Below, piece after piece: positions 1-39,923 of a stretch of DNA of 39,923 bases. This DNA comes from Brenneria bubanii (GTDB lineage: Bacteria; Pseudomonadota; Gammaproteobacteria; Enterobacterales; Enterobacteriaceae). The stretch is taken from assembly GCF_022378355.1 (NCBI RefSeq), contig NZ_JAKMAJ010000022.1, positions 1 through 39,923 of the forward strand, in the 5' to 3' direction. The notes below the pieces were generated by a model. The model ran no database searches. It worked only from the letters and a program-made list of their open reading frames with translations, and was not told the DNA's origin. Made by a program: the position numbers and the translations under genes. The stretch's first letter is position 1. Each line of letters begins with the position of its first letter.

Positions 1-820
1 TTGACGCTCCAGTTGCCGTCGCCATTGACCGTAGTCTGATAGGTTTCATTACCCACCCTCACGGTAACCGCATCGCCCGGCTGCACATTGCCGCCGGTTT
101 GACCGCTGACGCTGATGCTTTGGCCAGACTCAGTCGCGTTCACCACGTTATCCGCGGTGATGTTATCGATGCTGATCGAGGCATCCGGCGCCGTGGTGTC
201 AACCGCATAACCGTGGCTTGCGTTAGCCGTTGTCGTGTTGCCAGCGGCATCGGCGGTAGTCACCGTGGCGTTAACCGCGGAATTCCCCGCCAGCACGCTG
301 CCCGGTACATTGACGCTCCAGTTGCCGTCGCCATTGACCGTGGTCTGATAGATCTCATTACCGACGGTGACGGTGACCGCATCGCCAGCCTGCACGTTGC
401 CGTCGGTTTGACCGCTGACGCTGATACTCTGGCCGGACTCAGCCGCGTTCACTACGTTATCGGCGGTGATGTTATCGATGCTGATCGAGGCATCCGGCGC
501 CGTGGTGTCAACGCCGTAATCGTGGCTGGCATTGGCCGTGGTGATATTGCCCGCAGAATCAGTGGTGGTGACCGTCGCCGTCACCGACGTGTTGCCCATC
601 AGCGCGCTGCCCGGCACATTCGCGCTCCAGCTTTTGCCGCCATCGGCATCGGTGGTTACGGTGGCGGGGTAAGTTTGACCGCCGACGGTAACCGTCACCG
701 TGTCGCCAGCCTGTACATCGCCACCCACTTTACCGGTGACGCTAATCGTCTGACCGGATTCCGTCGCGTTCACCACGTTATCGGCGGTGATGGGATCGAT
801 GGTGATCGAAATCGAGGGCG
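1..820 (-). repeat. 309-bp tandem repeats coding Ig-like adhesin domains
   Basis: The same block recurs at 1, 310 and 619 (ttgacgctcc at 1 and 310, a diverged form at 619), an exact period of 309 bp or 103 codons. The copies at 1-309 and 310-618 are nearly identical over long stretches. The copy nearest the N terminus, from 619 to about 820, is more diverged and has a small insertion. The array continues past the left edge, so its copy number is unknown. Such arrays change length by recombination and often break short-read assemblies. Confidence 0.9.
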
Positions 821-1346
821 AAGTTGTATTATCCGTTGTCTCCGAAGCTGGCGCAGTTAACGCTGCCGCTCCGGCAGTGTTTTCATCGGCAGAGGAGGCC
901 GCGCTGAACGTCAGTCCGGCAGTATCATAACCAATGGTGGGGGAAACCATCTGCCCGGTTAACTCCAGGACGACCGGCGTATGGCTGCCGCCGCCGTCTC
1001 CTGCTTCGCCGATATCACTATTCCCGGCCGCCGTTGGCTCCAGAACTTGCGTCGGGTCATCCCCTTGCGCAATAGCGGATTGTAAGGATGCAACATCATC
1101 ATTACTGTCCGCGGCGGTAGCGCCTTTATTGTTCACGCCAGCAACGTCGCTCCAGCTGCTGTCGCGACCTAAATCCAGTGTGCGTCCATCAGGTAACGTG
1201 ATCGAAACAGCGCCGTTATCTCCCGTAACGACTTCTTCTCCGCTATAAATACGTTCACCTGCGACTAACAACCGTTGACTGCCGTCCAAAGAGACGACAA
1301 AAACCTGACCGATAACGAATTTGATGATACCGATTACGCTATTCAA
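1..1346 (-). CDS. LapA-type giant repeat adhesin, N-terminal part (runs off the left edge)
   Basis: About 448 N-terminal residues are visible; the gene continues beyond the window. A TTG start at 1346 is preceded by AAGGGG seven bases upstream, and no better start is visible. Residues 1-65 form a LapA-type retention module: a hydrophobic start (NSVIGIIKFVIGQV), then ITLPDGRTLDLGRDSSW. A TAAG motif at residues 105-108 matches the site where the periplasmic protease LapG cuts Pseudomonas LapA. After an acidic, Gly/Ser-rich linker come Ig-like repeats of about 103 residues (TADNVVNA..ESGQ; VDTTAPDASISID). Known family behaviour: the retention module plugs the TolC-like pore and keeps the adhesin on the surface until LapG releases it when cyclic-di-GMP falls. 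The divergent type I secretion genes at 1725-6733 are the obvious exporter. No lapD or lapG gene is seen in this window. The expected C-terminal RTX and secretion signal is not visible. Confidence 0.88.
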   Translation of the reverse strand, partial: MNSVIGIIKFVIGQVFVVSLDGSQRLLVAGERIYSGEEVVTGDNGAVSITLPDGRTLDLGRDSSWSDVAGVNNKGATAADSNDDVASLQSAIAQGDDPTQVLEPTAAGNSDIGEAGDGGGSHTPVVLELTGQMVSPTIGYDTAGLTFSAASSADENTAGAAALTAPASETTDNTTSPSISITIDPITADNVVNATESGQTISVTGKVGGDVQAGDTVTVTVGGQTYPATVTTDADGGKSWSANVPGSALMGNTSVTATVTTTDSAGNITTANASHDYGVDTTAPDASISIDNITADNVVNAAESGQSISVSGQTDGNVQAGDAVTVTVGNEIYQTTVNGDGNWSVNVPGSVLAGNSAVNATVTTADAAGNTTTANASHGYAVDTTAPDASISIDNITADNVVNATESGQSISVSGQTGGNVQPGDAVTVRVGNETYQTTVNGDGNWSV

Positions 1347-1724
1347 AATAGTTCCCCTTGCTATCTAGTTATTATTTTTGTGTTACGGATAAATTAGTAA
1401 TAGATTGCGACATCATCCTGATGAGTTGTTCTTGCTGTACAAACCTATTGTAAAATTGATTTTATTATTACTGTAAACCAACTTCTTACGTGTCGATCTC
1501 TTGACTCGACGACCAATATAATAAAAAATCCTGCATGTTCTTTCCAGAAGAATACTCACATTGAGTAAATAAGACGTTTTAAATGATATTCATTTCATTA
1601 AAAATTAATGCACTGATATTGCATATATTATCAGAATGTTTATTCAACCATAAGTTTAACTAACCTTTAGATCGGTATAAGAAAAAAATCACGAAATCAA
1701 CTTTTTTCTCAGGAAAATATTATA
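1347..1724. promoter_or_regulatory. Divergent control region between adhesin and secretion genes
   Basis: This 378-base AT-rich gap separates the adhesin start from the TolC-like gene and must hold the promoters for both. No confident -35/-10 pair was assigned. A dyad AAATGA-tat-TCATTT lies at 1581-1595 and resembles half of a Fur box (about 12 of 19 matches to the classical consensus by eye). A TATAAG hexamer near 1676-1681 could be a -10 element for the plus-strand operon. No ORF of note is seen. Confidence 0.45.
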
Positions 1725-3080: not shown

Positions 3081-3097
3081 TACGCTATTTTGCTATG

Positions 3098-3129
3098 CCC
3101 GTTCTTCGCGCCGTCACGCGGAGAACGGG
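3098..3129 (+). other. Intercistronic hairpin (possible attenuator or RNA stabiliser)
   Basis: CCCGTTCT at 3098-3105 pairs with AGAACGGG at 3122-3129, and inside it CGCG pairs with CGCG around a six-base loop. This gives a stem of roughly 12 pairs. No U tract follows, so full termination is doubtful. It may trim expression of the transporter relative to the outer membrane protein, or stabilise the upstream mRNA. Confidence 0.55.
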
Positions 3130-3198
3130 GCGTTTAGTTACCACTCATAATATTTTCACGTTGCACGGATTGCATTGCGTAAGGAAAACCTCAGCTAA

Positions 3199-5385
3199 AT
3201 GAAGTTGCATTCTGTTCACGATACCCATACGCCTGACGAAGCAGGCCCCCAGGAACATAGCGACCCGCGTAGCCGCCACGACGATCCCTTGCTGGATAGC
3301 TTACTGATACTATGTTCTTTGCAGGGGAAATCGGTCAGCAGGTCAACGCTCACGGCCGGCTTGCCGCTCGCCGCTCAGCGTTTATCAGTGAAATTACTCC
3401 CCAGAGCGGCGGCGCGCGCAGGTTTGCAAGGCAGAGTGCTTAAGCGGCCGTTGGATAAAATTGCCGCGATGTCGCTTCCGGCGATGCTGTTGCTACGCGA
3501 TGGAAGAGCAGCCATTTTGTTGGGCTGGAATGCCGACGGCGATGCCCGCATCATGCCCAGTGAAACGGAAGGCGGCGAAATTACGGTCGATCGCCCGGCA
3601 TTAGAGGAGGACTATCTGGGATTGGTGATGTTTGCCCAACCTCGCCATCAGTTTGATATTCAGTCCGATTCTCTTATCCCCCGCACTAAATCCTGGTTCA
3701 AAGATACGCTTAAACTCTCGCGCTTCCTTTATATGGATGCCGTGCTCGCCAGTTTGCTGGTTAATATCATTGCGCTGGCAACCCCGCTGTTTATCATGAA
3801 CGTCTATGACCGGGTGGTGCCCAATCAGGCGACAGCCACCTTATGGGTGCTGGCTACCGGTATTACCGGCGCGTTTATCTTTGATTTGATATTGAAAACG
3901 CTGCGCGGCATCTGTCTTGATATCGCGGGCAAAAAAACCGATCTGATTATTTCGGCGACGCTGTTTGAGCGCATTACCGGTATGTCGATGAAGGCCCGTC
4001 CGGCAAGGGTCGGCAACTTCGCGCAAAATATCCACGAGTTTCAGTCGCTCAGAGATTTTCTATCCTCGTTAACGCTGACAAGCCTTATCGATTTCCCCTT
4101 CACATTGCTTCTGCTGTTAGTGATTGGGATTATCGGCGGGCCGCTGGTCTGGGTTTCCATCCTCGCCTATCCTATCGCGCTGCTCGCCAGTTGGGCGCTG
4201 CAAAAACCGCTAACGGAAGCGATCGAAAAAACGATGCACCTCGCCAGCGAGCGGCAAGCGACATTGATTGAAACCCTGAGCAGCCTGGACGCAATTAAAG
4301 TCAATAACGCAGAGAGCGAACGACAGTACGTGTGGGAGCAAACCATCGGCAGTCTGAGCCGCCTGGAAATGCGAGCCAAAACATTGTCGTCCCTGGCGGT
4401 TAATCTGACCCAATGGATCCAGCAATTTGCCGGCGTCGCCATGATTGTGGTCGGCGTCTATATGCTGATTGACGGCAAACTCAGTATGGGGGGATTAATC
4501 GCCTGTTATATGCTGAACGGCCGGGCGCTCATCCCGCTGGGACAACTCTCGGGGCTGGTCACGCGTTATCAGCAGGCCCGTCTGACGATGACCACGACCG
4601 AACAAATGATGCAGCTGCCGCAGGAGCGCAATGAGAGTGAACATCCGTTAAAGCGGGAAAACATTCGCGGCAGTATCGAGTTTCGCAACGTGACGTTTCA
4701 TTATCCCGAGCAGAAAAACAGCTCTTTACAGGGAATAAATATTTCCATCGCCGTTGGCGAAAAAGTCGGCATTATCGGACGAAGCGGTTCGGGTAAAAGC
4801 TCGCTACAAAAACTGATCGTCAATCTCTATCAGGCCAATACGGGCAATATCCTCGTTGACGGCGTCGACGTGCGTCAGCTGGACGTCAGCGACCTCCGGC
4901 ATAACATCGGCTACGTACCGCAGGATATCCAACTTTTCAGCGGATCGCTGCGCGATAACCTGATCGTCGGCGCGCGTTACGTTGAAGATGAGACCATGCT
5001 GCAAGCGGCGGAAATCGCCGGGGTTAATGAATTTGCCCGTCTGCATCCCGATGGTTACAACCTTCAGGTGGGTGAACGCGGTCAGCAATTATCCGGCGGC
5101 CAGCGTCAATCGGTCGCGTTGGCTCGCGCGCTACTGCTCGATCCGCCGATTCTGATTTTCGATGAGCCGACCAGCTCCATGGATAACACCAGTGAAGATA
5201 GGCTGAAGAAAGCGCTCGTACCCGTCGTCGCCAACAAAACGCTGTTGCTGGTGACGCATCGCGCGTCGATGCTGTCGTTGGTTGATCGATTAATTATTGT
5301 TGATAAAGGGCGAATTATTGCCGATGGCCCGAAAGCTATCGTCATGGATGCCTTAAAAAAGGGACAGATCAATGCGTCTCGTTGA
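3199..5385 (+). CDS. Type I secretion ABC transporter with degenerate C39-like domain (LapB/LssB type)
   Basis: A 728-residue inner membrane exporter that energises adhesin secretion. Residues 30-150 resemble a C39 peptidase domain but lack the catalytic Cys context, so it is a C39-like docking domain rather than a protease. Membrane segments span about 180-435 (including VNIIALATPLFIMNVYDRVVP). The nucleotide-binding domain spans about 492-725, with Walker A GRSGSGKSS at 527-535, signature LSGGQRQS, Walker B ILIFDEPTSS and the H-loop VTHR. AAGGA lies upstream of the ATG. The 3' end overlaps the next gene by 14 bases, suggesting coupled translation. The domain order fits transporters for large RTX/LapA adhesins, and the divergent adhesin is the likely substrate. 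Confidence 0.92.
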   Translation: MKLHSVHDTHTPDEAGPQEHSDPRSRHDDPLLDSLLILCSLQGKSVSRSTLTAGLPLAAQRLSVKLLPRAAARAGLQGRVLKRPLDKIAAMSLPAMLLLRDGRAAILLGWNADGDARIMPSETEGGEITVDRPALEEDYLGLVMFAQPRHQFDIQSDSLIPRTKSWFKDTLKLSRFLYMDAVLASLLVNIIALATPLFIMNVYDRVVPNQATATLWVLATGITGAFIFDLILKTLRGICLDIAGKKTDLIISATLFERITGMSMKARPARVGNFAQNIHEFQSLRDFLSSLTLTSLIDFPFTLLLLLVIGIIGGPLVWVSILAYPIALLASWALQKPLTEAIEKTMHLASERQATLIETLSSLDAIKVNNAESERQYVWEQTIGSLSRLEMRAKTLSSLAVNLTQWIQQFAGVAMIVVGVYMLIDGKLSMGGLIACYMLNGRALIPLGQLSGLVTRYQQARLTMTTTEQMMQLPQERNESEHPLKRENIRGSIEFRNVTFHYPEQKNSSLQGINISIAVGEKVGIIGRSGSGKSSLQKLIVNLYQANTGNILVDGVDVRQLDVSDLRHNIGYVPQDIQLFSGSLRDNLIVGARYVEDETMLQAAEIAGVNEFARLHPDGYNLQVGERGQQLSGGQRQSVALARALLLDPPILIFDEPTSSMDNTSEDRLKKALVPVVANKTLLLVTHRASMLSLVDRLIIVDKGRIIADGPKAIVMDALKKGQINASR

Positions 5386-6733
5386 GTATGCCAAACGCAT
5401 CAGGCGTTATTTTATCGGGCGTGATGAAGATAGCCTGCATGCCATGCCCGAAGTCAGTCGCGCCATCGTGGAAGACTCCCCCAGAGTCATTCGCATCACG
5501 TTATGGAGCATCGGCGCTTTTTTCCTGTTTTTTATTCTGTGGGCCGCGTTTGCAGACATCGACGAAGTGACCCGCGGCAACGGCAAAGCGATACCTTCAT
5601 CCCGTTTGCAAAAGATTCAAAATCTTGAAGGCGGTATCGTTACTGAATTGTTTGTTCATGAAGGTCAGGTCGTTCAGCCGGGCGATCCCTTGCTGCGGCT
5701 TGACGATACCCGTTTTGCCTCCAACGTTGGGGAAACGGAAGCCGACCGCTTGGCGCTAATCCTGAGAATCGAACGCTTGAATGCCGAAATTAACGATCGT
5801 GCATTAGCGTTATCTTCGGAGATCACGGTCCGATCGCCGGAAATGGCCAAGGGTGAACAGGATCTCTACAACAGCCGGCGCCAGCAATTCCACAATGAAA
5901 TATCGGGATTGGAAGAACAGTTGGTGCAACGCCGGCAGGAACTGCGCGATTTCTCCGCCAAACAGCTCCAGTTTCGCAATAGCCTGAATTTGTTGCAGCA
6001 AGAGATTAGGATGTCGGAACCGCTTATCGCCGAAGGCGCGATTTCCAAGGTGGAAGTATTGCGTCTGCGACGCGCGGAAGTGGAAACCAAAGGTCAGTTG
6101 GAATCCGTCACGCTATCCGTTCCCCGCGCTGAATCAGCCATCAAGGAGATCGAAAACAAGATTCAGGAGACCCGCGGACGTTATAAAAGCGAGGCGTTAG
6201 CGCAGTTGAACGAAGCCCAGACCAATTTGAACAAGCTCTCTGCGACGGGCAAAGCGCTGGAAGACCGGGTCAATCGTACTCTGGTGATTTCGCCGGTGCG
6301 GGGTATTGTGCAACAAATACTGGTGAACACCATTGGCGGCGTTATTCAACCGGGCAGCGATCTGGTTGAGATCGTTCCGCTGGATGATAAGCTGCTGGTC
6401 GAAGCCAGAATCCGTCCGCAGGATATCGCCTTCCTGCATCCGGGGCAGGAAGCGATCATCAAACTCACCGCTTACGACTACACCATCTATGGCGGGTTGA
6501 AAGGTCATCTTGAACAAATTAGCCCGGATACGGTAACCGATAAGGAAGGCAATAGTTTTTATATTATTCGCCTGCGTACCGATAAAAACTATCTGGGAAG
6601 CGCAGAAAAACCCTTGTTGATTATTCCGGGCATGGTCGCTTCGGTCGACATCATAACCGGCAAGAAAACCATTCTCAGCTACCTGCTGAAGCCTATTCTT
6701 CGCGCCAGAGCGGAAGCGCTGCGGGAAAGATAA
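5372..6733 (+). CDS. HlyD-family periplasmic adaptor (LapC-like membrane fusion protein)
   Basis: A 453-residue adaptor linking the ABC transporter to the TolC-like channel. A cytoplasmic N-terminal segment of about 40 residues is followed by one membrane helix (about 42-62). Next comes the first lipoyl half (LQNLEGG-type IQNLEGGIV, then EGQVVQPGDPLLRLD), a long coiled-coil hairpin at about 120-300, and the second lipoyl half and beta-barrel (VRGIVQQILV, IQPGSDLVEIVP). The ATG at 5372 lies within the 3' end of the transporter gene, with an AGGGACAG ribosome site. It ends 29 bases before a strong terminator and completes the type I system. The length is typical. Confidence 0.92.
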   Translation: MRLVEYAKRIRRYFIGRDEDSLHAMPEVSRAIVEDSPRVIRITLWSIGAFFLFFILWAAFADIDEVTRGNGKAIPSSRLQKIQNLEGGIVTELFVHEGQVVQPGDPLLRLDDTRFASNVGETEADRLALILRIERLNAEINDRALALSSEITVRSPEMAKGEQDLYNSRRQQFHNEISGLEEQLVQRRQELRDFSAKQLQFRNSLNLLQQEIRMSEPLIAEGAISKVEVLRLRRAEVETKGQLESVTLSVPRAESAIKEIENKIQETRGRYKSEALAQLNEAQTNLNKLSATGKALEDRVNRTLVISPVRGIVQQILVNTIGGVIQPGSDLVEIVPLDDKLLVEARIRPQDIAFLHPGQEAIIKLTAYDYTIYGGLKGHLEQISPDTVTDKEGNSFYIIRLRTDKNYLGSAEKPLLIIPGMVASVDIITGKKTILSYLLKPILRARAEALRER

Positions 6734-6762
6734 GTAAACGCGCATAGCCTGAGACAAAAGTT

Positions 6763-6806
6763 CGGGGCAGGGTCTTCTTTCTGCATGACCCTGCCCCGCT
6801 TTTTTC
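6763..6806. terminator. Strong intrinsic terminator between convergent operons
   Basis: A perfect 12-bp stem (CGGGGCAGGGTC at 6763-6774 pairing with GACCCTGCCCCG at 6787-6798) is followed by CTTTTTTC on the plus strand. On the minus strand the stem is followed by AACTTTTG, so it probably also stops the tad operon coming the other way. Confidence 0.9.
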
Positions 6807-6811
6807 TTTGA

Positions 6812-8683
6812 TTATTTATTGAGCCGCAGCTCGGTAAGCGACGAAGCGATAGAGGCAAACGCACTCGACAAATCATTGACGTTGGTGGCGTTGAAATAAA
6901 AGCTGCCAGCCCCGCTGGAGCAATTCTGCATCATGGTTTGCGTGCTGGCGTTGGTGCCGCTGCCCAGCACTACCGTATAGATGGTAATGCCTTCGGCACG
7001 AATATTGGTGCAAAGTTGCGAGGTCAGTCGATTTAACGTGGCGTTACCCACCTGCCAGTCGGTTCCAGCCTGATACAGTTTGCCATAGGGCTTTATTTCG
7101 GTACTGCTGTTGTTCAACTCCGTTTCGCCGCCGACGCGAAGCGAATTAAAGTCGGAACTGTTGGCATATTTATAAAACGTGACGTAGTGGTTATCGTCAT
7201 TCAGTTTATCAATAGAAAAAGCATGACTGGCGGAGCCTGTCAACCATGCCTGACTACCCGTCGAATTTTTATATTGGTATTGATATTTGATGGTGTAATC
7301 CACCGGAATATCCCTCTCGCCATCAATCACCACGCCAACGCTGGCGCTGGCCTTATTGGTTATCGGATCAAGACCGTTATTGCCGTCGGTGAGCAGTACA
7401 ATCACTTTGTTCAGACCAATGGCGGGATCGCGCGGCAGGTCGCTATTACCCCAGCCGTCAGCGCCGCGCCAATTCGGATCCAGCATACGCCACGACCATA
7501 ACAATCCCAGCGGGATAATGGTGCGGCCATCCACCCCCATTGCGTTGATTTTATTATTTAACGCATTCGCATTATTAGACAGAAACATCATATCCCGGCT
7601 TTGAGGACAGTTATCACTTCGGATAAAGCCGTATTGCGACTGCTCATAATAGGAATTAAAGGCGAACTTAGGGATGATGTTGCCGCCATCCTTATTCTCG
7701 AGCTCTACGCTAATGCTGCGATTGCCGCTAATCACCGGCTTTGAACCGGGTAAAATTCGATAATCTTTAGCTCCGGAAGCATCAAGCTTTTTCAGTTCCG
7801 CCGTGGTTTTTAATCCGTTGGATTCGCTTAATGTACCTACGGTCATTAATGGCTCAAAACGGCCCGGCAATCCCGGTTCGGCGTTAAAGGTATCGTTCAC
7901 ATAAGGTTCCACCACGCAGCCGCCCCAGTTCTTGTCGGCGGCAATGTAGGGAAGCGCCCGGGCCTCAGCGGATAGCCAGCGTTTCCTATCCCGCCCGACA
8001 TACACGGTGTCTGCAAAGGGAACGATGCCAATATAGGACTGGCTGGCGCTTCCGTCTGTCTGCGCCGCACCCAGCACGGTATTCACCAATTCCGTTGCGG
8101 CGGATTTCAGCCTGACAATCCGATTCTCATTGTTCATTGAACCAGTATTATCCAGCGCCAGCACCATCTCCAGATCGCTGCGCGTGCGGCGCACCGCCCC
8201 ATTTTCCGCAAACAGATTAAACGAGGCTCTGTTCATCAGCCCCGTCACCAGCAGCGGCAGACTACCGTTGGCGGTCATCGAAACCAACTGCGCGCCGGTG
8301 GGGTTACCGGATTCATCGGTTGCGACACTGTAGGTGATAGACACGTTATCTTCGGTAACCGAACTGCCGAGAAAACCCGATGGCATATTGCTGAAAAAGT
8401 AACTGATGGCATCAGCCCGCCAGTTGGCCTCAGCCTCGGCGCTGGAATCCGGCGTAAAGGTGTCCAGATTACGTCCGGCGGAGATCACCGCCGTATCCAG
8501 GGCATTTTGCAACTTGCTTTGCGCCATGCTGTAACGGATAAAATCGATTGAACTCAACAGCGTCAGCAGGAGCAGCGGGAAACAGAGCAGATAGGTCAAG
8601 GTGACCGAGCCGCGCTGATCCTGTTGCAGCATAAGCAAAAACGATTTTGGCCTTATCATGGCTCCCTCGACTTTCAACGTCAT
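6812..8683 (-). CDS. tadG: TadG-like pilus protein with von Willebrand A domain
   Basis: Last gene of the tad operon, 623 residues. A hydrophobic N-terminal helix follows QRG (GSVTLTYLLCFPLLLLTLLSS), resembling TadE-type pseudopilins but with Thr instead of Glu at +5. A von Willebrand A domain starts near 150 with the metal-site motif DNTGS in MVLALDNTGSMNN. A later motif, LLTDGNNG, and the C-terminal VVLGSGTNAS stretch complete the fold. In the family the protein is membrane-anchored, faces the periplasm, and aids pilus assembly or anchoring. The start at 8683 overlaps the tadF stop (ATGA). An in-frame ATG at 8659, preceded by GAGGGAG, is an equally credible start. Confidence 0.87.
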   Translation of the reverse strand: MTLKVEGAMIRPKSFLLMLQQDQRGSVTLTYLLCFPLLLLTLLSSIDFIRYSMAQSKLQNALDTAVISAGRNLDTFTPDSSAEAEANWRADAISYFFSNMPSGFLGSSVTEDNVSITYSVATDESGNPTGAQLVSMTANGSLPLLVTGLMNRASFNLFAENGAVRRTRSDLEMVLALDNTGSMNNENRIVRLKSAATELVNTVLGAAQTDGSASQSYIGIVPFADTVYVGRDRKRWLSAEARALPYIAADKNWGGCVVEPYVNDTFNAEPGLPGRFEPLMTVGTLSESNGLKTTAELKKLDASGAKDYRILPGSKPVISGNRSISVELENKDGGNIIPKFAFNSYYEQSQYGFIRSDNCPQSRDMMFLSNNANALNNKINAMGVDGRTIIPLGLLWSWRMLDPNWRGADGWGNSDLPRDPAIGLNKVIVLLTDGNNGLDPITNKASASVGVVIDGERDIPVDYTIKYQYQYKNSTGSQAWLTGSASHAFSIDKLNDDNHYVTFYKYANSSDFNSLRVGGETELNNSSTEIKPYGKLYQAGTDWQVGNATLNRLTSQLCTNIRAEGITIYTVVLGSGTNASTQTMMQNCSSGAGSFYFNATNVNDLSSAFASIASSLTELRLNK

Positions 8684-9327: not shown

Positions 9328-9330
9328 CGC

Positions 9331-10600: not shown

Positions 10601-10627
10601 CGGTATTTCCCTTCCGTTGTATTTTCA

Positions 10628-11563: not shown

Positions 11564-11564
11564 T

Positions 11565-13987: not shown

Positions 13988-15192
13988 GACGACCTCTTAA
14001 GACTCAGCGATGACCACCATGCTGTTTTAGGTTTGTTCGCCGCTTCACCGGTCAGGATGCTGGCAAGCTGTTTTATTCCCTGGGCAAACTCACTGCGTTC
14101 CGGCAGCGGCTCCGCCAGATTTTCCGACAGCGACAGCGATTGCGCGTCATAACCGATCTGTACCGCGATCGGCAGATCCACCGTTTTCATAAAATCGCTG
14201 CTATTGACCTTATTGCGGTTCAACGGCTGCGGCTGGTTTACGATGTTATACACCGTCGCCGGATTGGGATGGGCTTCGATATGACGCGTCAGCTTCACCA
14301 GAGTTCTGGCCGAGTAGACGGATTGTTCCGCCACGACGCAGGCCAGACTGGCATGGTAAAAGGCCTCAGATGCCAGCGCGCCGCCGCGCTGCGGCACATC
14401 CAATACCACGTAATGAAAATGCTGACTCAGCGTCGTCAGTAATTCCCCCAGAATGCCCTCCGCCGCCTCATAAGGCTCCATATAATCCAGTTCGGATCCC
14501 AGCGCGTATAATCGGTTATCCGCCGTGCTTAACGTCCGTTCCAGATATTGAAGGTCCAGGCGATCGACATTTCCCATGATCTCAACCAGCGAATTGCCGC
14601 CCGAGAGTCCCAGCATGCTGATGCCGCCGCCGCCGTAAAAATCAAGATCGATATAAACCACACGTCGGTGAGCGCCGCCGGCGGATAGCTGTCTGGCCAA
14701 ATGCACCGCGACGCTGGTCGCGCCCACGCCTCCGCGCGTACCAACCACCGCAATAGACTTACCCAGCCGCCGCTGCCGAACCGGATTATGATCGTTATCT
14801 TCCAGAACCCGACGTAACAGCTCGGCGCCCAGCGGCTTTACCAGATAATCTTGCACGCCACGCTGCAACAGGTTGCGATAGAGCCCGATATCATTACGAT
14901 CGCCCACGACATAGACCTGAACAGAAGGCTCGCAGGCATTGGCAAGCCGATCCAGTTCATCCAGCGGCCCACTGGATCCGGAAATATCCACCAATAACCG
15001 CTGAGGCGAGCGCCCCATTTTCTTCAGCCAGGCAATCGCATCGTCAATACTGCCACGTTCAACCCGGCTGTCTGCCACCGTGCTGGCCTTAAGAAAACGA
15101 GTCAGTTCCTCTTTGCTATCCATATCTAGAACAAAGGCTGCAACGCTCACTACTCGCAGTTCACTGCGCTCTTTATCACCCAATACACTCAT
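13984..15192 (-). CDS. tadZ: TadZ/CpaE-type pilus localisation ATPase
   Basis: A 402-residue protein with an N-terminal receiver-like domain (about 15-130; RLLVDISG, YVVGDRND, DYLVKPLG) and a C-terminal MinD/ParA-like ATPase domain. The deviant Walker A reads GTRGGVGATS at 151-160, with Arg and Ala where ParA proteins have the two lysines, so ATP turnover may be weak or absent. In the family TadZ/CpaE marks the cell pole and recruits the pilus machine. The receiver-like domain may not be phosphorylated. The ATG at 15192 has GGAT upstream; the 3' end overlaps tadA. Confidence 0.88.
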   Translation of the reverse strand: MSVLGDKERSELRVVSVAAFVLDMDSKEELTRFLKASTVADSRVERGSIDDAIAWLKKMGRSPQRLLVDISGSSGPLDELDRLANACEPSVQVYVVGDRNDIGLYRNLLQRGVQDYLVKPLGAELLRRVLEDNDHNPVRQRRLGKSIAVVGTRGGVGATSVAVHLARQLSAGGAHRRVVYIDLDFYGGGGISMLGLSGGNSLVEIMGNVDRLDLQYLERTLSTADNRLYALGSELDYMEPYEAAEGILGELLTTLSQHFHYVVLDVPQRGGALASEAFYHASLACVVAEQSVYSARTLVKLTRHIEAHPNPATVYNIVNQPQPLNRNKVNSSDFMKTVDLPIAVQIGYDAQSLSLSENLAEPLPERSEFAQGIKQLASILTGEAANKPKTAWWSSLSLKRSS

Positions 15193-15206
15193 AATCCGTA
15201 TCCGTG

Positions 15207-15620
15207 TTAATCGCTTGTTTTCGCCGTAGACTCGGTTTGACGCAGTGGCTCAACTTTATTCTCGCGATAGCGGGTTATCGACAGCGCCGCCGCATCAGCC
15301 TGCATACCGCTATACTGACGCGGGGCCGCCAAATCCTGGGGGCGAGCCAGACTGGCAGCCAGATTCGTGTAAGTCGCGCAGCCAAACGCAATCCGCCAGC
15401 GGCCGTTATCCTCCCAGTCCCGACCAGGTTGCAGCATGCTCTGGCAGTCAGGCGCAACCGCTACCCACTCCTTACCACGCTGCTGCAACTTGATTGAAGA
15501 CACATCCGGCATGCCGTCATCATCCTGCTGCCATGAGCTACAGCCGGACGACAGTGCTATCGCCGCGCTGATAGGCAATAAGACAAGATATCGACGCAGC
15601 CCGCTAAACATAACCATCAT
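15207..15620 (-). CDS. RcpB/CpaD-family pilus assembly lipoprotein
   Basis: A 137-residue predicted lipoprotein: hydrophobic signal followed by SSGC, a lipobox with Ser instead of Leu at -3. The C-terminal part has the CpaD-like run NLAASLARPQDLAAPRQ followed by ITRYR. It lies between the secretin gene and tadZ, the usual place for this component, and should sit at the outer membrane with the secretin. AGGGAG lies four bases before the ATG at 15620 and seven before the ATG at 15617, so either start is possible. Confidence 0.78.
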   Translation of the reverse strand: MMVMFSGLRRYLVLLPISAAIALSSGCSSWQQDDDGMPDVSSIKLQQRGKEWVAVAPDCQSMLQPGRDWEDNGRWRIAFGCATYTNLAASLARPQDLAAPRQYSGMQADAAALSITRYRENKVEPLRQTESTAKTSD

Positions 15621-15665
15621 CACACTCCCTTTGGTTTTTGGACAAACATCCGCAGCAGTGAAGCG

Positions 15666-17024
15666 TTAATAGACAAACCCAGCTGAGCCCGTCAAACGAG
15701 GAACTTTATTCTGCAAGGGGTCAACGCCCGTTTTTTTATTCAAAATATATTCGATATCGGAATTAGCTCTCATGCTATCCAATGGCGTCGCGAGTTGGTC
15801 GGCGGTAGTCGGGCGTACCAGATACGGCGTGACGATGACCACCAGTTCGCTTTTATTGTTTTGGTAATTAGAAGAAGAAAACAGCTTGCCCAGCACCGGA
15901 ATAGAGCCCAGTCCGGGCACTTTGGAAAGCACATCGCTGACGTTGTTCTGTAATAATCCGCCGATGGCGAAACTCTGCCCGCTGGCCAGTTCCACCGTGG
16001 TTTCCACCCGCCGCACAGAGATGCCGGGAATGCTCAATCCATCGACCACAATGCTGCTGTTGGCATCGATCTCGCTGATTTCAGGCCGCACCTTAAGGCT
16101 GATACGATCATCCGATAGCACCGTCGGGGTAAAGTCGAGGGCGACGCCAAAGGGCTTGAATTCGATGGTGGTGGTATCCGATTCCTGTCTGACCGGCACG
16201 GGGAATTCTCCGCCCGCAAGGAAGCTGGCGGTTTGACCGGAAACTGCGGTCAGATTGGGCTCAGCCAGGATGCTGATCAACCCTTCTTTATCCAGCGCGT
16301 CAATCATGGTTTCAACCGAGGTACTGCCTGACTTGAAGCCGCCGACGGCGCCATAGCTATTGGCCGCTCGGCTATAGGTTGTTACGCCGGTAGTGCTATT
16401 GGTCGATGCGAAATCGCGTAATCCGCTCACTCCCAGCAAAAAGTTCCCCGGGCTGGACAGCACCTCCCAGTTAACGCCCAGTTGCTGAGTGACCGACCGC
16501 GAGACTTCAGTAACCCGCACGCGCAGATGAACCTGTACCGGGCTGGAAATCGTCATTTGGTTAAGCAACTCGTCTTTTTCCCCCAGATAAGGGCGAATAG
16601 TACGGTTAACGGCCTCGATTGTTTCGGCATTAGGTACGGAGCCAGCCACCATAATCGAGCCTGGAGACGACGTCAGCGTCAGACGCAGTTTCGGAAAACG
16701 CTGACGTAAGGTTGTCTGTACCTCAGACAGATTATGTCTCACCACAATCGTACGCTGGATCATGCGCTTACCGCTGTTATCCAGAACGTACAGGGATGTG
16801 GTGCCGACGCGTTTACCCAACACCAGCACCGCGCCGGGAGTGGGCGACTGAACGTCGGCAATCGCCGGATCGGCCACGAAGACCGAAGCCATATCATCGG
16901 AGACGTTAATCAACTCCCCCGCGCCGACGGACAACGTCATTGTTTGTAGCGCCCTGGCGGGCACGCTTAATAATAGGCCGGCCAGCGCCAGCACCAACAT
17001 ATGCCATGAAATTCTAGCGAGCAT
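15666..17024 (-). CDS. rcpA: RcpA/CpaC-type outer membrane secretin
   Basis: A 452-residue secretin. It has a signal peptide ending near ARA-LQT, an N-terminal pilus-secretin domain (DPAIADVQSPTPGAVLVLGKRVGTT), and a BON-like segment near 105-165. The conserved secretin barrel covers about 250-415 (EPNLTAVSGQTASFLAGGEFPVP, VPGLGSIPVLGKLF). It forms the outer membrane ring through which the Flp pilus exits. The ATG at 17024 lies inside the end of rcpC (11-base overlap), with AGGAG ten bases upstream. A TTG at 17033 is too close to that site. Confidence 0.93.
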   Translation of the reverse strand: MLARISWHMLVLALAGLLLSVPARALQTMTLSVGAGELINVSDDMASVFVADPAIADVQSPTPGAVLVLGKRVGTTSLYVLDNSGKRMIQRTIVVRHNLSEVQTTLRQRFPKLRLTLTSSPGSIMVAGSVPNAETIEAVNRTIRPYLGEKDELLNQMTISSPVQVHLRVRVTEVSRSVTQQLGVNWEVLSSPGNFLLGVSGLRDFASTNSTTGVTTYSRAANSYGAVGGFKSGSTSVETMIDALDKEGLISILAEPNLTAVSGQTASFLAGGEFPVPVRQESDTTTIEFKPFGVALDFTPTVLSDDRISLKVRPEISEIDANSSIVVDGLSIPGISVRRVETTVELASGQSFAIGGLLQNNVSDVLSKVPGLGSIPVLGKLFSSSNYQNNKSELVVIVTPYLVRPTTADQLATPLDSMRANSDIEYILNKKTGVDPLQNKVPRLTGSAGFVY

Positions 17025-17955
17025 AAGTGTCAAACTCCTGTTCCTGACGTTGACTGCCGCGCATGATGATCACTCGTTGTGATCTAGGCGGACTGATTTT
17101 CCCTTTCGAGTCTGATGCCGATGCTTCATACTCTCTGGCGCCCAACGCGCGGGAAACATCCCCGCCCCACACCGGACGGTTTTCACTACCGCGCGTGCTG
17201 TCCCATGCCACCACGGAAGCCGTTGCGCCCTGCTCATCAGCTTGAGCGCCCGTATTTCGATCTTCTAATGCGAAACTACGCAACGCCATCGACAGGCTGC
17301 CTAGCTGCGCCGCCACGGTAACGGCTTCGGCAGCGCGCGGCGCCACCTCGACGGTCATGGTTCGGGCCCGGTTTGTCTTACCGTTCTCCTCCGTCTGGCG
17401 CTGGATACTTGAACCGACGGCAATGATGCGCGCCCGCTCGACAACCGTTTCACTCACCACCAGTCGCGTATTGCTACTGTTGTGATTATTTTCCTGCTGG
17501 TTGAGTTTCTGGGTCAGAATGATATCGACAAAATCCCCGGGTTGAATCAGTCCGGCATTGCCGGAAACGTCATCCACCGGTACTGAAACGGCACGCATTC
17601 CCGGCTTTAACACCGCAGCCAGAAAGCCCGGGGCGTCCGGACGAATAATATTGCCGGCCAGAATTAACTCGCCTGAGGCTAACGGCTTACGTAACAGCGC
17701 CCCATTCAGATTGGCGGCGGTGCTGCCTTCACGCAGAGCCCCCTCCGGTACCTTGCCTGAGGAATAGGCCTTCCAGCCTAAGTCACCCTCTCGCAACAAT
17801 AATCCGGCCGGTAAATCAGCAACCGCAACCCGGACCTGATCCAGTTTTTCCGGCGGCGGACTGGCATTTTGGCTACTGACAAACCATATGCGTGCGACTA
17901 CGGCCAGCATCGCCGCCGCAAGCAGAATCAAAGCAAATTTCAATACTGAAGACAT
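17014..17955 (-). CDS. rcpC: RcpC/CpaB-type pilus assembly protein
   Basis: A 313-residue periplasmic protein with an N-terminal membrane anchor (about 5-27) and an SAF domain (about 44-110; VRVAVADLPAGLLLREGDL, LRKPLASGELIL). An RcpC-type domain follows (GMRAVSVPVDDVSGNAGLIQPGDFVDIILT). The family works with the secretin, possibly binding peptidoglycan. The ATG at 17955 has GGGAG ten bases upstream. It overlaps rcpA by 11 bases. Confidence 0.9.
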   Translation of the reverse strand: MSSVLKFALILLAAAMLAVVARIWFVSSQNASPPPEKLDQVRVAVADLPAGLLLREGDLGWKAYSSGKVPEGALREGSTAANLNGALLRKPLASGELILAGNIIRPDAPGFLAAVLKPGMRAVSVPVDDVSGNAGLIQPGDFVDIILTQKLNQQENNHNSSNTRLVVSETVVERARIIAVGSSIQRQTEENGKTNRARTMTVEVAPRAAEAVTVAAQLGSLSMALRSFALEDRNTGAQADEQGATASVVAWDSTRGSENRPVWGGDVSRALGAREYEASASDSKGKISPPRSQRVIIMRGSQRQEQEFDTYAR

Positions 17956-18038
17956 CAACAGGCCACTCCCGGCTTGATGATCAGATGGCTGAAAAAGCGA
18001 CCTGTCGTTGAAAAACCTACGGTCGGACAGATAGTGGG

Positions 18039-18569
18039 TTAAGGCAGAATGCCCCAGCCCTGGCTGACTAACGCCGTTATCCCTCCGGCCACCAGTGCGA
18101 CGCCATAAGGCACCCCGCGCCGCGCCGACAGCATATAGCCAGGCGAGAGGGATGGTTTTCTGACTGGAGCATCTGATGATGCCGTCTGCGACGTTCTATC
18201 CGTCAGCAGATCCGCCAGCCAGCCGGCAATGCCCAGCATCGCACCGACCAGACCTATCACCACCAGTACGGAGGCCATAGACAGGGGCCCCGCCCATAGC
18301 ATGACTACCGCGCCCAACTTGACATCGCCGCCGCCGACACCACCGCGAACAAAGGGCAGCAGCAGCAGCAGAAAGGCGACCATAGCCACTAAACCGTGGA
18401 CGGCAGACTGCTGCCAGTTCAATCCCTGAACCCAGGCATACACGGGAAACAGCAGGGCATAATAACCAATCCAGCGATTGGGCAAACGTCGGCGAGTTAA
18501 ATCAGCACGGATTAATAGCCCGAAAAGGGCTATTAATAACGCACTAATAAAAAGCTTAAATAAAAGCAT
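18039..18569 (-). CDS. tadV: TadV/CpaA-type prepilin peptidase
   Basis: A 176-residue polytopic aspartic protease of the type IV prepilin peptidase family without the methylase domain. One catalytic Asp lies in LIRADLTRRRLPN near the first helix, and the other lies in the GGGDVKLGA motif (GxGD type). It cleaves the leaders of Flp, TadE and TadF at the inner membrane. The ATG at 18569 is preferred over an in-frame TTG at 18578; neither has an obvious ribosome site, so translation may depend on flp. Confidence 0.88.
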   Translation of the reverse strand: MLLFKLFISALLIALFGLLIRADLTRRRLPNRWIGYYALLFPVYAWVQGLNWQQSAVHGLVAMVAFLLLLLPFVRGGVGGGDVKLGAVVMLWAGPLSMASVLVVIGLVGAMLGIAGWLADLLTDRTSQTASSDAPVRKPSLSPGYMLSARRGVPYGVALVAGGITALVSQGWGILP

Positions 18570-18589
18570 TAATAACAATAAAGTTATTA
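18570..18589 (-). other. AT-rich hairpin spanning the flp stop and the flp-tadV gap
   Basis: TAATAAC at 18570-18576 pairs with GTTATTA at 18583-18589 around a six-base loop. On the coding strand the structure spans the flp stop codon and the gap up to tadV, just before its ATG. It could lower tadV translation or protect the 3' end of a short flp mRNA, which would favour abundant pilin. It is weak because it is pure A/T apart from one pair. Confidence 0.4.
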
Positions 18590-18775
18590 GTTTGTTTTAC
18601 TAACCTGCGTATCAATCTTGTCACCCAGGTTCTCGAATGCGGTCGTAAGCTTACCCCCAAAAGTAGTAAGAGCAGCCGCGATGACAACGACAATAACGCC
18701 AGCCAGAATGGCATATTCCAGGGCGGATACGCCACGCTCATCCTTCTGTAGGGCTTTAAATAGTTTACGTATCAT
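18587..18775 (-). CDS. flp: Flp type IVb major pilin
   Basis: A 62-residue prepilin. The positively charged leader ends in ERG (Gly15); the mature protein begins VSALEYAILAG, with the family's Glu-Tyr pair at +5/+6 and a following hydrophobic helix. The mature pilin is 47 residues. It is the first gene of the tad operon; AAGGA lies eight bases before the ATG. Family role: the main subunit of thin adhesive pili that form bundles. A nine-G run lies about 50 bases upstream of the start on the coding strand. Confidence 0.95.
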   Translation of the reverse strand: MIRKLFKALQKDERGVSALEYAILAGVIVVVIAAALTTFGGKLTTAFENLGDKIDTQVSKTN

Positions 18776-19462
18776 TTTTCATTCCTTAAAAGTTAATATA
18801 AATTAAACAAACAACAGCACACACCCCCCCCCGCCAAGCAAATAACCCGACAGGGCGCCAGGTAAGATTATTCGTTGATACTTATTGTCAGAGAGTAATA
18901 AAAAAGATTCCCTTATATTACCCCCAAAAGATGAGACTAATCTTAATCCAAATTAAGGGGTAAACTCAAGCAGTTTGCGTTAAGTTTTTATGAAAAACCG
19001 ACAGACATCACAAATATATTCAAGACAAAAATCAACATTTATGCTATTAACGCAAGGACTTACGACACAACATCTCATTAGATTTACTTAAGAATCATTG
19101 ACAATCCCATTCACTTATCATTTATTATTACTTTACTGAAAAGTAAAGAGTTATTGTTGCGACATAACGACATACGCAGGCAGTTACACTAATTTCACAT
19201 TACTCGATACATGGTGGACATTTATGCGTATTGAGTTTTTTTTCAACTACCAACAATACCAAAACTTCATATCAACAACATTATATTTGATGTTTTTTGC
19301 TAACATTACAGAAATAATTAAGTTAAAAAACCCATTAATAATTTTCACGAAAGAGCCAAAATAGCTTCTTTTAAAATCTATATTTCCATGATGACGTAAT
19401 GCTTATATCTGGATAAGTATATTAATTCCGGCATAATGCTTAAAATTGCAATTACTGCATTA
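18776..19462. promoter_or_regulatory. AT-rich 687-base region upstream of flp
   Basis: No convincing gene is seen. The region must hold the flp-tad promoter (minus strand) and the 3' end of the cyclase gene. Visible items are: nine C in a row at 18824-18832; a dyad TGAGACTAATCTTA at 18932-18945, reading TAAGATTAGTCTCA on the minus strand and resembling an RcsB-type box; a short repeat CTTAAT-ccaa-ATTAAG at 18942-18957; and CTTTACT-gaaa-AGTAAAG at 19131-19148. A possible but poorly spaced pair CTGACA...TAATCT lies near 18860-18890. No promoter is called firmly. The low GC content suggests H-NS binding. Confidence 0.5.
18824..18832 (-). repeat. Homopolymeric tract, nine G on the flp coding strand
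   Basis: Nine uninterrupted C on the plus strand, 49 to 57 bases upstream of the flp start codon, in an otherwise AT-rich leader. Tracts of this length slip during replication and in other bacteria switch surface genes by altering promoter spacing or leader structure. Whether this one varies is unknown, and the count may also be a sequencing error. Confidence 0.7.
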
Positions 19463-20977
19463 TTAATGATTATTCAAATCATGATAAATTCGAGTCTGGC
19501 TACATCCCATCGCTTTCGCCTGATACATGGCGGAGTCCGCATTAATAGCCAATGTAAGGGAATCGGTACCGTGCTCTGGATAAAGCGCAATGCCGATACT
19601 ACAGGATATATCCATTTTTTTCCCTTCGATATCAAAGGGCTTATTCAATGCATGATGAATTTTTTCAGCAACATACAGGCTATTTTCCACTTCTTTGATA
19701 CCTTGAAGTAAAATGATAAACTCATCGCCGCTGCGCCGATATACCGTATCGGAGTCTCTAACGGCTCCGCGCATACGGGCTGCGGCTTCTTTTAATAACA
19801 AATCACCAATAGCGTGACCAAAAGAGTCATTTATCTGCTTAAATTTATTTAAATCAAGGAACATCAGGGCGATCTTTCTGCCCGTTTGTTTAGACAACAA
19901 GATGGCCTGTTCCATTTGCTCAGCAAACGTTAAGCCATTCGCCAATGACGTCAGTGAGTCATAATGGGCCAACTGACGATAATGTTCTTCACTTTGCCGT
20001 AACATATCAATAGCGCGATATCGCTCTATCGCAATGGAGATTAATTGGGCAGACTTCTCAATCGAAAAAATTTCTTCCTCGTTAGGAACATATACCTTTC
20101 GGTGATAAACACTCAGCACGCCTAATACTTCTTTGTTTTGCCCATAAATAGGTTCAGACCAGCAAGAGCGCAACCCGGCGTACAGCGCCAACCCCTTATG
20201 CAAAGACCAGTCGGGATGAACGGAGATATCGTCAGTCACCACACGCTTCCCGCTATAAGCGGCGGTACCAAATGAGGCCACGCCGTCAGCAATCTTGACG
20301 TTATGGATCGCATTTTTATAAAAGCCAGGCAAACTGGGTGCCGACCCCAGCATCAGGCATTTTTTTTCCTTATCAACCAACAAGACTGAACAAACAATGC
20401 GGCCGGGATTTTTCTCTTCGACGCTAAAGATAATCGCATCAAGAATATCTTTTAACGGCGCGCCGCTCGATAGAAGCTCTAATGCCCGATTGTAGGAGTT
20501 ATCGTGGTGCTCTTGTATTTTCCTTTCCGTAATATCGAGCTTGATGCCGACGTATTGCGTAGAGTCATTAGTCTTGTTGTATATCTTCGCGATCTTGGCC
20601 TTTTCCCAATACAGCTGTCCATCTTTTCGCCGGTTAACAAACTCGCCGCTCCATACCTCACCTTTATTTATGGTGGACCAAAGGTCTTCATAAACTGAGG
20701 GATTAGTCATGCCTGAACTTAATATACTCGTTTTTTTGCCAATAACTTCGTCGGGCATATAGCCTGACATGACCACAAACTGACGATTTACATAAACGAT
20801 TTCACAGTTCTTGTCTGCAATCATGATAGACGCGGGGCCGTATTCGGTCGCGAAGAACATCATATTTAGAAAATCTTGTTTTTTCCGCTCCAAAGTGAAT
20901 TTTTGTTTGAATTTTCTATTTTTTATAGCAGAAAACAGCAGCAGAGATGATAATATGATTATTATAATTTCATACAC
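19463..20977 (-). CDS. PAS-GAF-GGDEF protein with SGDEF active site (putative diguanylate cyclase)
   Basis: A 504-residue protein from a GTG start at 20977, which has GAGGAG nine bases upstream. A TTG reading from 21034 lacks a ribosome site. Order: one N-terminal membrane helix (about 3-17), PAS/PAC (about 43-155; YVNRQFVVMSGY, DITERK), GAF (about 161-320) and GGDEF (about 336-496). The active site reads SGDEF at 416-420, with Ser in the first position. The inhibitory RxxD (RDSD) is at 407-410, five residues before it. The usual LPNR is LANG. I recall that an SGDEF protein near a type I-secreted adhesin in Pectobacterium atrosepticum was reported as an active non-canonical cyclase. Orthology to it is inferred from domain and context. 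Confidence 0.9.
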   Translation of the reverse strand: MYEIIIIILSSLLLFSAIKNRKFKQKFTLERKKQDFLNMMFFATEYGPASIMIADKNCEIVYVNRQFVVMSGYMPDEVIGKKTSILSSGMTNPSVYEDLWSTINKGEVWSGEFVNRRKDGQLYWEKAKIAKIYNKTNDSTQYVGIKLDITERKIQEHHDNSYNRALELLSSGAPLKDILDAIIFSVEEKNPGRIVCSVLLVDKEKKCLMLGSAPSLPGFYKNAIHNVKIADGVASFGTAAYSGKRVVTDDISVHPDWSLHKGLALYAGLRSCWSEPIYGQNKEVLGVLSVYHRKVYVPNEEEIFSIEKSAQLISIAIERYRAIDMLRQSEEHYRQLAHYDSLTSLANGLTFAEQMEQAILLSKQTGRKIALMFLDLNKFKQINDSFGHAIGDLLLKEAAARMRGAVRDSDTVYRRSGDEFIILLQGIKEVENSLYVAEKIHHALNKPFDIEGKKMDISCSIGIALYPEHGTDSLTLAINADSAMYQAKAMGCSQTRIYHDLNNH

Positions 20978-21796
20978 AATAACACTCTCCTCAGGCCCGA
21001 GAGGTCCTGAACGTACAGTTCGCAGTAAAAACAACGAAAGATCCCGGTAATAGCCCCCTTCCCCGTCGTTTTACAGGATAATTGACACATTTCCGGAGAG
21101 CGGAAAGAATGAAAGAAAAAATGCTCCAAATAGCTGAAGGATTCAGGAACATAGAAACATCGACATAAAAACCCCGCGTATCACTGTGTGCAAATCAAAT
21201 GAGGATTACAAATCCTAAATAGAGCCTTAATTAATATTAATCATGCTTGCGTTATAAGTTTATCTAATGGAATTAAAAAACATTCCATGTTTCATATGCT
21301 GGTACATTTTGACCATCAATCTTTTGTAAGCAAATCAATTATACCAATAAATATCATTATTTTAATCAATAAAATCTATCACAAACCGATATTCGATCGT
21401 TCTTAGCAAACATTTATTTTTTTATTCTTATTAATCATGCAGTTAAAACAAACCCAATAGTTAGCTATAAATTATAACCTACGCTTCACATGGTTTTTCA
21501 AGCGAGCGATAAAATATCACTTATCGCTTCATTAACAATACAATGCACAAACAATAACAAAAAGGTAAGGATAAAATAATAAAGAACATAATTATGCCAA
21601 TATAACGCAGTATTTATAGAGACGATAATCGCTAATTATTGAACGCGAATTCCCCCACGGGATAAAAAACATTAAATAAATTAATGTAATCAAGAATAAA
21701 AGTAAAAGATAAATTAAAAAATGGGGAAATAGCTCAAATTGCAGTCATATCATTAAATATTCATAAAGCGTAAAGCGGGGTGGCTTGGATTTTTAT
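20978..21796. other. AT-rich 819-base gap between the cyclase and phosphodiesterase genes
   Basis: No ORF, RNA gene or mobile element is supported here. Visible structures are a small hairpin TTTCCG-gagag-CGGAAA at 21090-21106 and an eight-base-pair inverted repeat AGCGATAA / TTATCGCT at 21505-21512 and 21521-21528. Neither is followed by a T run. The very low GC content fits a silenced regulatory spacer or decayed DNA. The cyclase promoter must lie near 21000-21200 but was not recognised. Confidence 0.5.
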
Positions 21797-22588
21797 TTAG
21801 AATTCAGTTTTTAGCGCATCAAAGCTATCGAATGGCTGCGGACGTGAAAGATAATATCCTTGTGCGGCATCAGCATGGGAAGCCTTAACAATGGCCCATT
21901 CTTCCGGTGTTTCAATTCCTTCGATAACAACATAATTACAAAAACGAGCAAGTAAAGAGATTAACGCCGGAAAAACCTTACGGCCTTCCCCGCTTTGCTG
22001 TAGCAGGATAAAAAGCTCGCGGGCAACCTTGATGCAGTCATATTGCGCCAACATTAATGACGAAAAATTCGCCACGCCGCACCCAAAATCATCCAGCCAC
22101 AATGTTTGGGCTTCAGGGAGTTTTGTTAACGTATCTTTTGGCAATCCGCCCTGATTTTCCACCATTTCAAACCTAATCCACGGCATAGTTGAAACGAGAC
22201 GCTTGGCTTCATGGCTCTTCTGTAAAGCAAGTAGCGTCATTCCATCAATATTGACCGATGCCAGCAGATTGTCTCGAGTAAAACGCAAGTGCCAGTGCGA
22301 CAAAAGCTGAAGCTGTTCTACGATGATCTGCAAACGTTCTTCAACATTGATGTTGGCGAAATATTTTTCGGGAGAGATGAAATATTGTGGTAAGGAGGAA
22401 GAGGAAATTGAAGTTAATAATTCAATAGCCATAAGTTTACCAGATGTTCGGTAAATAGGCTGAAAGGTGTACCGCCGTTGGCATTGATTCCAGTAGTTAG
22501 ATCCCAATGACTTAACGTCCTCTTGCTGAGGAAGCATTAGCCCAAACTGATTAACATTCCCTTCCTGCTGCACTATGCGTTCCGCCAT
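21797..22588 (-). CDS. pdeH: EAL-domain cyclic-di-GMP phosphodiesterase, PdeH/YhjH family
   Basis: A 263-residue stand-alone EAL protein, very like E. coli PdeH as I remember it (FQPIYRTSGKLMAIELLT, LASVNIDG, LWLDDFG, GIETPEEW). The catalytic residues are present: Glu56 in the ELL form of the EAL motif, Asn113, Glu141/Glu144, Asp166-Asp167, Lys187, Glu223/Glu226 and Gln243. It should hydrolyse cyclic-di-GMP in the cytoplasm and so favour motility over attachment. E. coli PdeH is a flagellar class 3 gene, and a sigma-28 promoter 49 bases upstream here shows the same wiring. The ATG at 22588 has no clear ribosome site. It lies next to the putative cyclase and the pilus and adhesin loci. Confidence 0.93.
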   Translation of the reverse strand: MAERIVQQEGNVNQFGLMLPQQEDVKSLGSNYWNQCQRRYTFQPIYRTSGKLMAIELLTSISSSSLPQYFISPEKYFANINVEERLQIIVEQLQLLSHWHLRFTRDNLLASVNIDGMTLLALQKSHEAKRLVSTMPWIRFEMVENQGGLPKDTLTKLPEAQTLWLDDFGCGVANFSSLMLAQYDCIKVARELFILLQQSGEGRKVFPALISLLARFCNYVVIEGIETPEEWAIVKASHADAAQGYYLSRPQPFDSFDALKTEF

Positions 22589-22636
22589 TAGACTGACACT
22601 GTTGGTTATAAAAGCTACATCATACAGGTTATACCG

Positions 22637-22663
22637 TTATCGACTCTCCGGTCGCAAACTTTA
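22637..22663 (-). promoter_or_regulatory. Sigma-28 (FliA) promoter of pdeH
   Basis: On the minus strand TAAAGTTT (22656-22663) is followed by exactly 11 bases and GTCGATAA (22637-22644). The FliA consensus is TAAAGTTT-N11-GCCGATAA, so only one base differs. It lies 49 bases upstream of the pdeH start and points at it. Confidence 0.9.

Positions 22664-39847: not shown

Positions 39848-39923
<76 letters not shown>

Follow-up and report, generated by a model that had tools for sequence, protein, structure and literature searches.

Does a locus in which a surface adhesin, its exporter, a pilus operon, and two cyclic di-GMP (c-di-GMP) genes stand side by side form a single regulatory circuit? The question is raised by a contig of Brenneria bubanii (NZ_JAKMAJ010000022.1, or C22), which was analyzed over its whole length of 39,923 bases, is called the window hereafter, and belongs to a 4.89-Mb genome assembled in 533 contigs. 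A first-pass annotation had proposed that one local c-di-GMP circuit controls both surface systems, a LapA/MRP-type adhesin and a Flp/Tad pilus, as a motile-to-sessile switch. Our comparison with relatives points to a different reading, which we consider likely: the block would be an MRP (LapA-type) adhesin locus run as a Lap c-di-GMP switch, with a self-contained Flp/Tad operon inserted, most simply once, into the gap between exporter and cyclase, and not a joint circuit. The features on which the argument relies are as follows.

3..1346, minus strand: N-terminal part of the LapA/MRP-type adhesin, with a TTG start at 1346, a retention module, a TAAG site, and Ig-like repeats; cut by the contig end
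1725..3080, plus strand: TolC-type outer-membrane part of the type I exporter, above the NCBIfam cut-off
3199..5385, plus strand: LssB/LapB-type ABC transporter, above the NCBIfam cut-off
5372..6733, plus strand: HlyD-type adaptor, above the NCBIfam cut-off
6763..6798, plus strand: 12-bp G+C-rich hairpin followed by a T run, between the adaptor and tadG, seen by eye
6812..18578, minus strand: tadG, tadF, tadE, tadD, tadC, tadB, tadA, tadZ, rcpB, rcpA, rcpC, and tadV, with Pfam support and no internal stop
18587..18775, minus strand: flp pilin gene of 62 codons, read from the sequence and named by eye from its prepilin motif
18776..19462, minus strand: A+T-rich stretch of 687 bp from the cyclase stop to flp, with blocks conserved in genomes G002 and G003
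19463..21034, minus strand: membrane-anchored PAS-GAF-GGDEF protein with an SGDEF motif and an RDSD I-site
21797..22588, minus strand: PdeH-type EAL phosphodiesterase (NCBIfam PRK11596, NF008617; 377.1 bits, cut-off 190)
22637..22663, minus strand: FliA-like promoter of pdeH, TAAAGTTT-N11-GTCGATAA

The genes named by the first-pass annotation, from adhesin through exporter, Flp/Tad operon, and cyclase-type gene to the PdeH-type gene, were all found in the order it had given, each free of internal stops, with the adhesin cut by the contig end. Because the window is a whole contig that ends inside the adhesin, only the first ~448 residues of this protein are visible. They match the NCBIfam retention_LapA family (NF033682) at 118.8 bits against a cut-off of 50 and also contain Ig-like and Ca_tandemer repeats. 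A LapG-type site, TAAG, lies at residues 105-108. When the adhesin N-termini of relatives were located by tblastn, the same site was found in 20 of 22 adhesins, the two exceptions being P. polonicum, where AAAG still agrees with the [TAP]AAG search pattern, and B. salicis with TAAD. The B. salicis sequence (locus L007, near 8980-9417) is the only one of the 22 to depart from TAAG or AAAG, and an adhesin with this site may resist cleavage. Between the divergent adhesin and exporter genes (1347-1724), a block of ~50 bases around TTCTGGAAAGAA...TTTTTTATTATAT is strongly conserved in all 10 Brenneria; it may resemble an RcsAB box.

The two c-di-GMP genes are likewise those of a familiar locus. The PAS-GAF-GGDEF protein is orthologous, by position and by sequence, to the cyclase of the Pectobacterium adhesin locus, and the motif combination RDSD-TVYRR-SGDEF was present in 22/22 loci. 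Its gene (19463-21034) is A+T-rich and has a low ratio of nonsynonymous to synonymous divergence (dN/dS, ~0.035). Its synonymous divergence (dS) is nevertheless high: 0.70 between G002 and G003, where core genes have 0.39, and 1.36 between the window and G002, where they have 0.88. A 2011 study by Perez-Mendoza et al. on the MRP adhesin locus of P. atrosepticum reportedly calls the cyclase non-canonical in its title. As for pdeH, the flagellar promoter that the first-pass annotation had assigned to it recurs across the genus: a FliA-like promoter matching 14-16 of 16 consensus positions, counted without a shuffle control, was found 75-77 bases from the start codon in 10/10 Brenneria, and its spacer keeps one length while its sequence varies. 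The Pectobacterium promoters are weaker against the same consensus (12-13/16 at 75 bases in 10 of the 11 scored, with none found in P. fontis among these 11), and that of Samsonia matches 14/16 at 62 bases.

The remaining parts of a Lap system lie beyond the window. The genome has one LapG-family match and one LapD-family match, adjacent to each other on contig C9. About 0.5 kb away from them, the C-terminal part of an adhesin, with Ig-like, VWA, and RTX domains, is cut off by the end of this contig. The LapD of the window genome has the degenerate motifs RGGEF and KVLAR instead of active ones, and the LapD receptor of P. fluorescens likewise has degenerate GGDEF and EAL motifs. We infer that C22 and C9, which are not joined in the assembly, meet inside one adhesin gene. 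The genus comparison covered ten Brenneria, namely the window genome and G001 to G009 (G001, B. alni; G004, B. izbisi; G006, B. roseae; G008, B. salicis; G009, Brenneria sp. hezel4-2-4), of which G002, G003, G005, and G007 are complete, single-contig genomes. In all four of these, 19-32 kb separate LapG from the exporter adaptor, on the side of the adhesin, and the order is adhesin C-terminus, lapD, lapG, yfhB, tRNA-adenosine deaminase, and mltF. The longest stop-to-stop frame at the adhesin, measured in three genomes, spans 8,329 codons in G002, 8,385 in G003, and 4,157 in G007. The lapD match of G003 (L065, 12523-14411) falls in two pieces in different frames; the gene may be frameshifted, or the assembly may be wrong there. 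In full, the locus thus reads lapG-lapD, adhesin, exporter, tad where present, cyclase, pdeH, and yfhL.

Without tad, this block is the known MRP adhesin locus of Pectobacterium and is ordinary for the relatives of the window strain; the tad insertion is its lineage-specific part. A search for named loci returned 19, of which two were discarded as weak EAL matches from acidobacteria, leaving 17 syntenic loci (5 Brenneria, 11 Pectobacterium, and 1 Samsonia). Gene order from adhesin through exporter, cyclase, and phosphodiesterase to yfhL was identical in all 17 and is shared by the window. In a review (PMC6584795), ECA3266 of P. atrosepticum is described as a type I-secreted repeat adhesin and ECA3270 and ECA3271 as its c-di-GMP enzymes, and a genus-wide comparison (PMC6963963) records the adhesin cluster in every Pectobacterium species it covered (12 in the genus) and names LapG alongside it. 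As far as these sources describe it, the P. atrosepticum locus thus resembles ours in its repeat adhesin, type I exporter, cyclase, phosphodiesterase, and LapG in the cluster, and differs in that the window has a Tad operon between exporter and cyclase and that the pdeH promoter of Pectobacterium is weaker against the FliA consensus. The locus also resembles the LapA-LapD-LapG system of P. fluorescens in its retention module with a TAAG-type site, its exporter, its LapG-family protease, and a LapD with degenerate GGDEF and EAL motifs; unlike that system, the Brenneria locus includes a cyclase, a flagellar-class PdeH, and an inserted Tad operon.

These parts suggest how the locus may work, with the genes, their order, motifs, and conservation observed directly and the switch itself modeled on Lap systems and on the P. 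atrosepticum work. The adhesin would pass out through its dedicated type I exporter, and the retention module would anchor it in the outer membrane. At high c-di-GMP, for which the local SGDEF protein is the likely source, LapD would capture the protease LapG and the adhesin would stay on the cell. Expression of PdeH from its flagellar-class promoter would lower c-di-GMP, freeing LapG to cut at TAAG and release the adhesin. Both this anatomy and the published work on a relative give good support to c-di-GMP control of the adhesin.

Where, then, does the pilus belong? Exporter and cyclase adjoin in all 17 syntenic named loci and in seven of the ten Brenneria (B. alni, B. izbisi, B. roseae, B. 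salicis, hezel4-2-4, G005, and G007). In the window, 12.7 kb with tad separate the two, and tad likewise stands between them in G002 and G003; it thus occupies the exporter-cyclase gap only in these three of ten Brenneria, in agreement with the earlier suggestion that the coupling is lineage-specific. The empty gap is convergent and measures 16-169 bp in 18 relatives (L020, a frameshifted record, was left out), and a terminator-like hairpin was found in 8 of 12 empty gaps tested. In three Pectobacterium loci (L012, L013, and L014), the gap between cyclase and adaptor contains an insert of ~120 bases of related sequence that resembles a small repeat element; this gap thus accepts other insertions too. 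In the window, the hairpin at 6763-6798, read by eye, is a candidate terminator of the exporter operon; our short-loop finder did not report it. Direct or inverted repeats across both insertion boundaries reached at most 8-9 bases in 3/3 carriers against shuffle means of 7.9-9.1, and since they stay at shuffle level, there is no transposition scar. The inserted Flp/Tad operon comprises 13 genes in which pilin, prepilin peptidase, secretin, ATPase, TadB/C, TadZ, and TadE/F/G are all represented; CpaB scores above its NCBIfam cut-off and tadF falls marginally below its Pfam cut-off (21.9 against 22.9 bits).

Wider samples were compared as well. Among 198 genomes of the family, a TadA match (E <= 1e-60) was found in 34 and an adaptor match (E <= 1e-100) in 24, and both occurred in five (G000, G036, G159, G175, and G031). 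In G036, G159, and G175, the nearest tad-adaptor pair is ~77 kb apart (G175), and in G031 the two lie on different contigs, so that their distance is not readable. Each of 25 Pectobacterium genomes has one TadA, 56-57% identical to that of the window (25/25), and 24 have the adaptor. The two share a contig in 13, with the nearest pair ~356 kb apart, and lie on different contigs in 11; in the 13 of 25 genomes where distance can be read, this bears out the statement of the first-pass annotation that the Pectobacterium flp locus lies elsewhere. A flp/tad cluster with an adjacent two-component system is described for Pectobacterium in PMC3767616. The window operon has the same general gene order as that cluster but belongs to another lineage (TadA 56-57%), stands in a different place, and has no two-component system within it. 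A literature survey on Brenneria with Flp/Tad, adhesin or type I secretion, c-di-GMP, or LapA, judged mostly by title and with most subscription papers outside it, showed no title on this arrangement among the papers listed.

TadA of the window type (78-100% identity) is present in 8/10 Brenneria, G005 and B. roseae being without it, and in five of them the same type of operon lies at other chromosomal sites. In hezel4-2-4, it lies between a glutaredoxin-2 gene and phosphatase/pyruvate-flavodoxin oxidoreductase genes; the former flank recurs in B. alni and the latter in G007. In B. izbisi and B. salicis, it lies between gcvT and a Hydrolase_4 (Pfam) gene. In the synteny comparison called for by the first-pass annotation, the insertion is specific to one clade, and the same operon type occurs elsewhere in five Brenneria. 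Three trees place the window genome, G002, and G003 in one clade: one built from 12 concatenated Tad proteins in 8 genomes (support 1.000), one from five proteins of the adhesin locus in 13 genomes (1.000), and one from seven proteins of a housekeeping neighbourhood in 11 genomes, without B. salicis and Samsonia (0.995). As the carriers group together in all three trees, one insertion in their common ancestor is the simplest account. The operon seems to have been laterally exchanged too, since the tad of G007 sides with those of B. alni and hezel4-2-4 in conflict with the gene trees, and dS between G002 and G003 is 0.197 for tad, half of the 0.388 for core genes. The dN/dS of tad is 0.110-0.112 in 3/3 comparisons, whereas exporter and core genes have 0.036-0.051, so tad is under purifying selection, less tightly than either. 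The intact Tad operon is most likely transcribed from its own promoter, its position being best explained by insertion into a permissive convergent gap and not by a joint circuit.

A second TadA lineage (55-56% identity to the window), which we infer to be the Pectobacterium one, is present in eight of the nine other Brenneria and was not found in the window genome. The two lineages lie only ~45-56 kb apart in three Brenneria (G004:C45, G007:C1, and G009:C27). In G007 (L057, 8206-9097), the matches to rcpC and rcpA stand ~0.9 kb apart, unlike in other tad operons of the type.

Several other accounts can be set against insertion of an independent operon. The one proposed at the outset, in which a single local c-di-GMP circuit drives adhesin and pilus together and the insertion was kept because tad came under the cyclase and PdeH, draws on the retention of this adjacency in three species despite a synonymous divergence of ~0.8 between the window and G002/G003, on an intact tad under purifying selection, and on a region upstream of flp whose conservation is confined to the three carriers. 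A precedent also exists in the P. aeruginosa PprB regulon, which joins a type I-secreted adhesin with Flp pili and uses them together, according to PMC3510237; there, however, a response regulator joins the systems, and none is present in or beside the window operon. We nevertheless consider this account improbable, as five Brenneria have this type of tad at other sites and the upstream regions give it no help. Conserved 14-column elements, compared with six column shuffles per comparison and with rnc as a control, revealed none shared between flp and adhesin above shuffles (33/42 against 31-34); flp and pdeH gave 32 against 30-33, and flp and the cyclase gene (dgc) gave 37 against 31-35, but rnc rose above its shuffles as well (31 against 27-29), leaving no usable signal. 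An Rfam search of positions 1-23300 matched no c-di-GMP riboswitch, three matches staying below gathering scores (E 0.22-0.58). Moreover, Pectobacterium Flp/Tad mutants showed no change in in vitro biofilm or motility according to PMC3767616. A dyad upstream of flp was also considered and rejected, with two matches in the window against 1.54 expected. Alternatively, the insertion may have set tad behind the cyclase, on the same strand and away from the terminator found there in many relatives, so that part of tad transcription would come from the cyclase promoter. Cyclase and tad do share a strand, 687 bp apart, and near the cyclase stop two scans found only a weak terminator in G003 and none in either the window or G002, against the terminator-like hairpins of most empty gaps. 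However, weaker hairpins with T-rich tails lie further on, nearer flp, in all three carriers, and the same finder left 4 of the 12 empty gaps without a hairpin, so the contrast is modest and such read-through appears unlikely. We are equally doubtful of its extension, that a single insertion directly behind the cyclase made pilus expression partly dependent on cyclase transcription and so wired the pilus into the existing c-di-GMP adhesion switch. A further alternative concerns origin and is compatible with the reading we prefer: the different tad sites may stem from separate lateral acquisitions instead of the relocation of one ancestral Brenneria operon. Each site has its own tad clade, and the discordant grouping of G007 and the halved dS between G002 and G003 agree with it. 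However, no relative with more than 57% TadA identity was found outside the genus among the candidates scored in 198 family genomes (at most eight each) and 369 class genomes (at most four each), and tad/same-locus divergence ratios of 1.0-3.1 for pairs without G007 and 1.7-3.8 with it leave the two histories unseparated. We regard separate acquisition as a tentative possibility, somewhat short of an even chance.

Some observations weigh against the reading we prefer, that of an adhesin switch with an inserted, self-contained pilus operon. The genome has 16 EAL matches, which makes a local effect uncertain; the SGDEF protein is a predicted cyclase; and the adhesin of the window and the adhesin end on C9 stand on separate contigs of the assembly. 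Furthermore, the three carriers share a conserved sequence upstream of flp that is unlike the regions upstream of tad operons elsewhere, and the flp promoter could be specific to the adhesin-locus site, which would imply site-specific tad regulation. Of the single circuit first proposed, the adhesin half is upheld by LapG, LapD, the TAAG site, and the ECA3270/ECA3271 enzymes as presented in PMC6584795, whereas the pilus half finds no such support, given tad operons elsewhere in five Brenneria, the convergent gap, and the lack of a shared upstream element above shuffles. Shared control of pilus and adhesin is therefore not supported, which is a lack of evidence and not a proof of independence. 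At the other extremity of the window, a tRNA-Ala gene occupies positions 39848-39923, the extreme contig end, and the assembly break there is thus probably at an rRNA operon.

Taken together, the lapG-lapD, adhesin, exporter, cyclase, and pdeH block would represent a compact c-di-GMP switch for adhesion that has been conserved. Seven Brenneria genomes in which the site is naturally empty provide a comparison for whether neighbourhood alone puts a pilus under such a switch. If neighbourhood alone has no such effect, the locus would be a caution against inferring regulation from adjacency.

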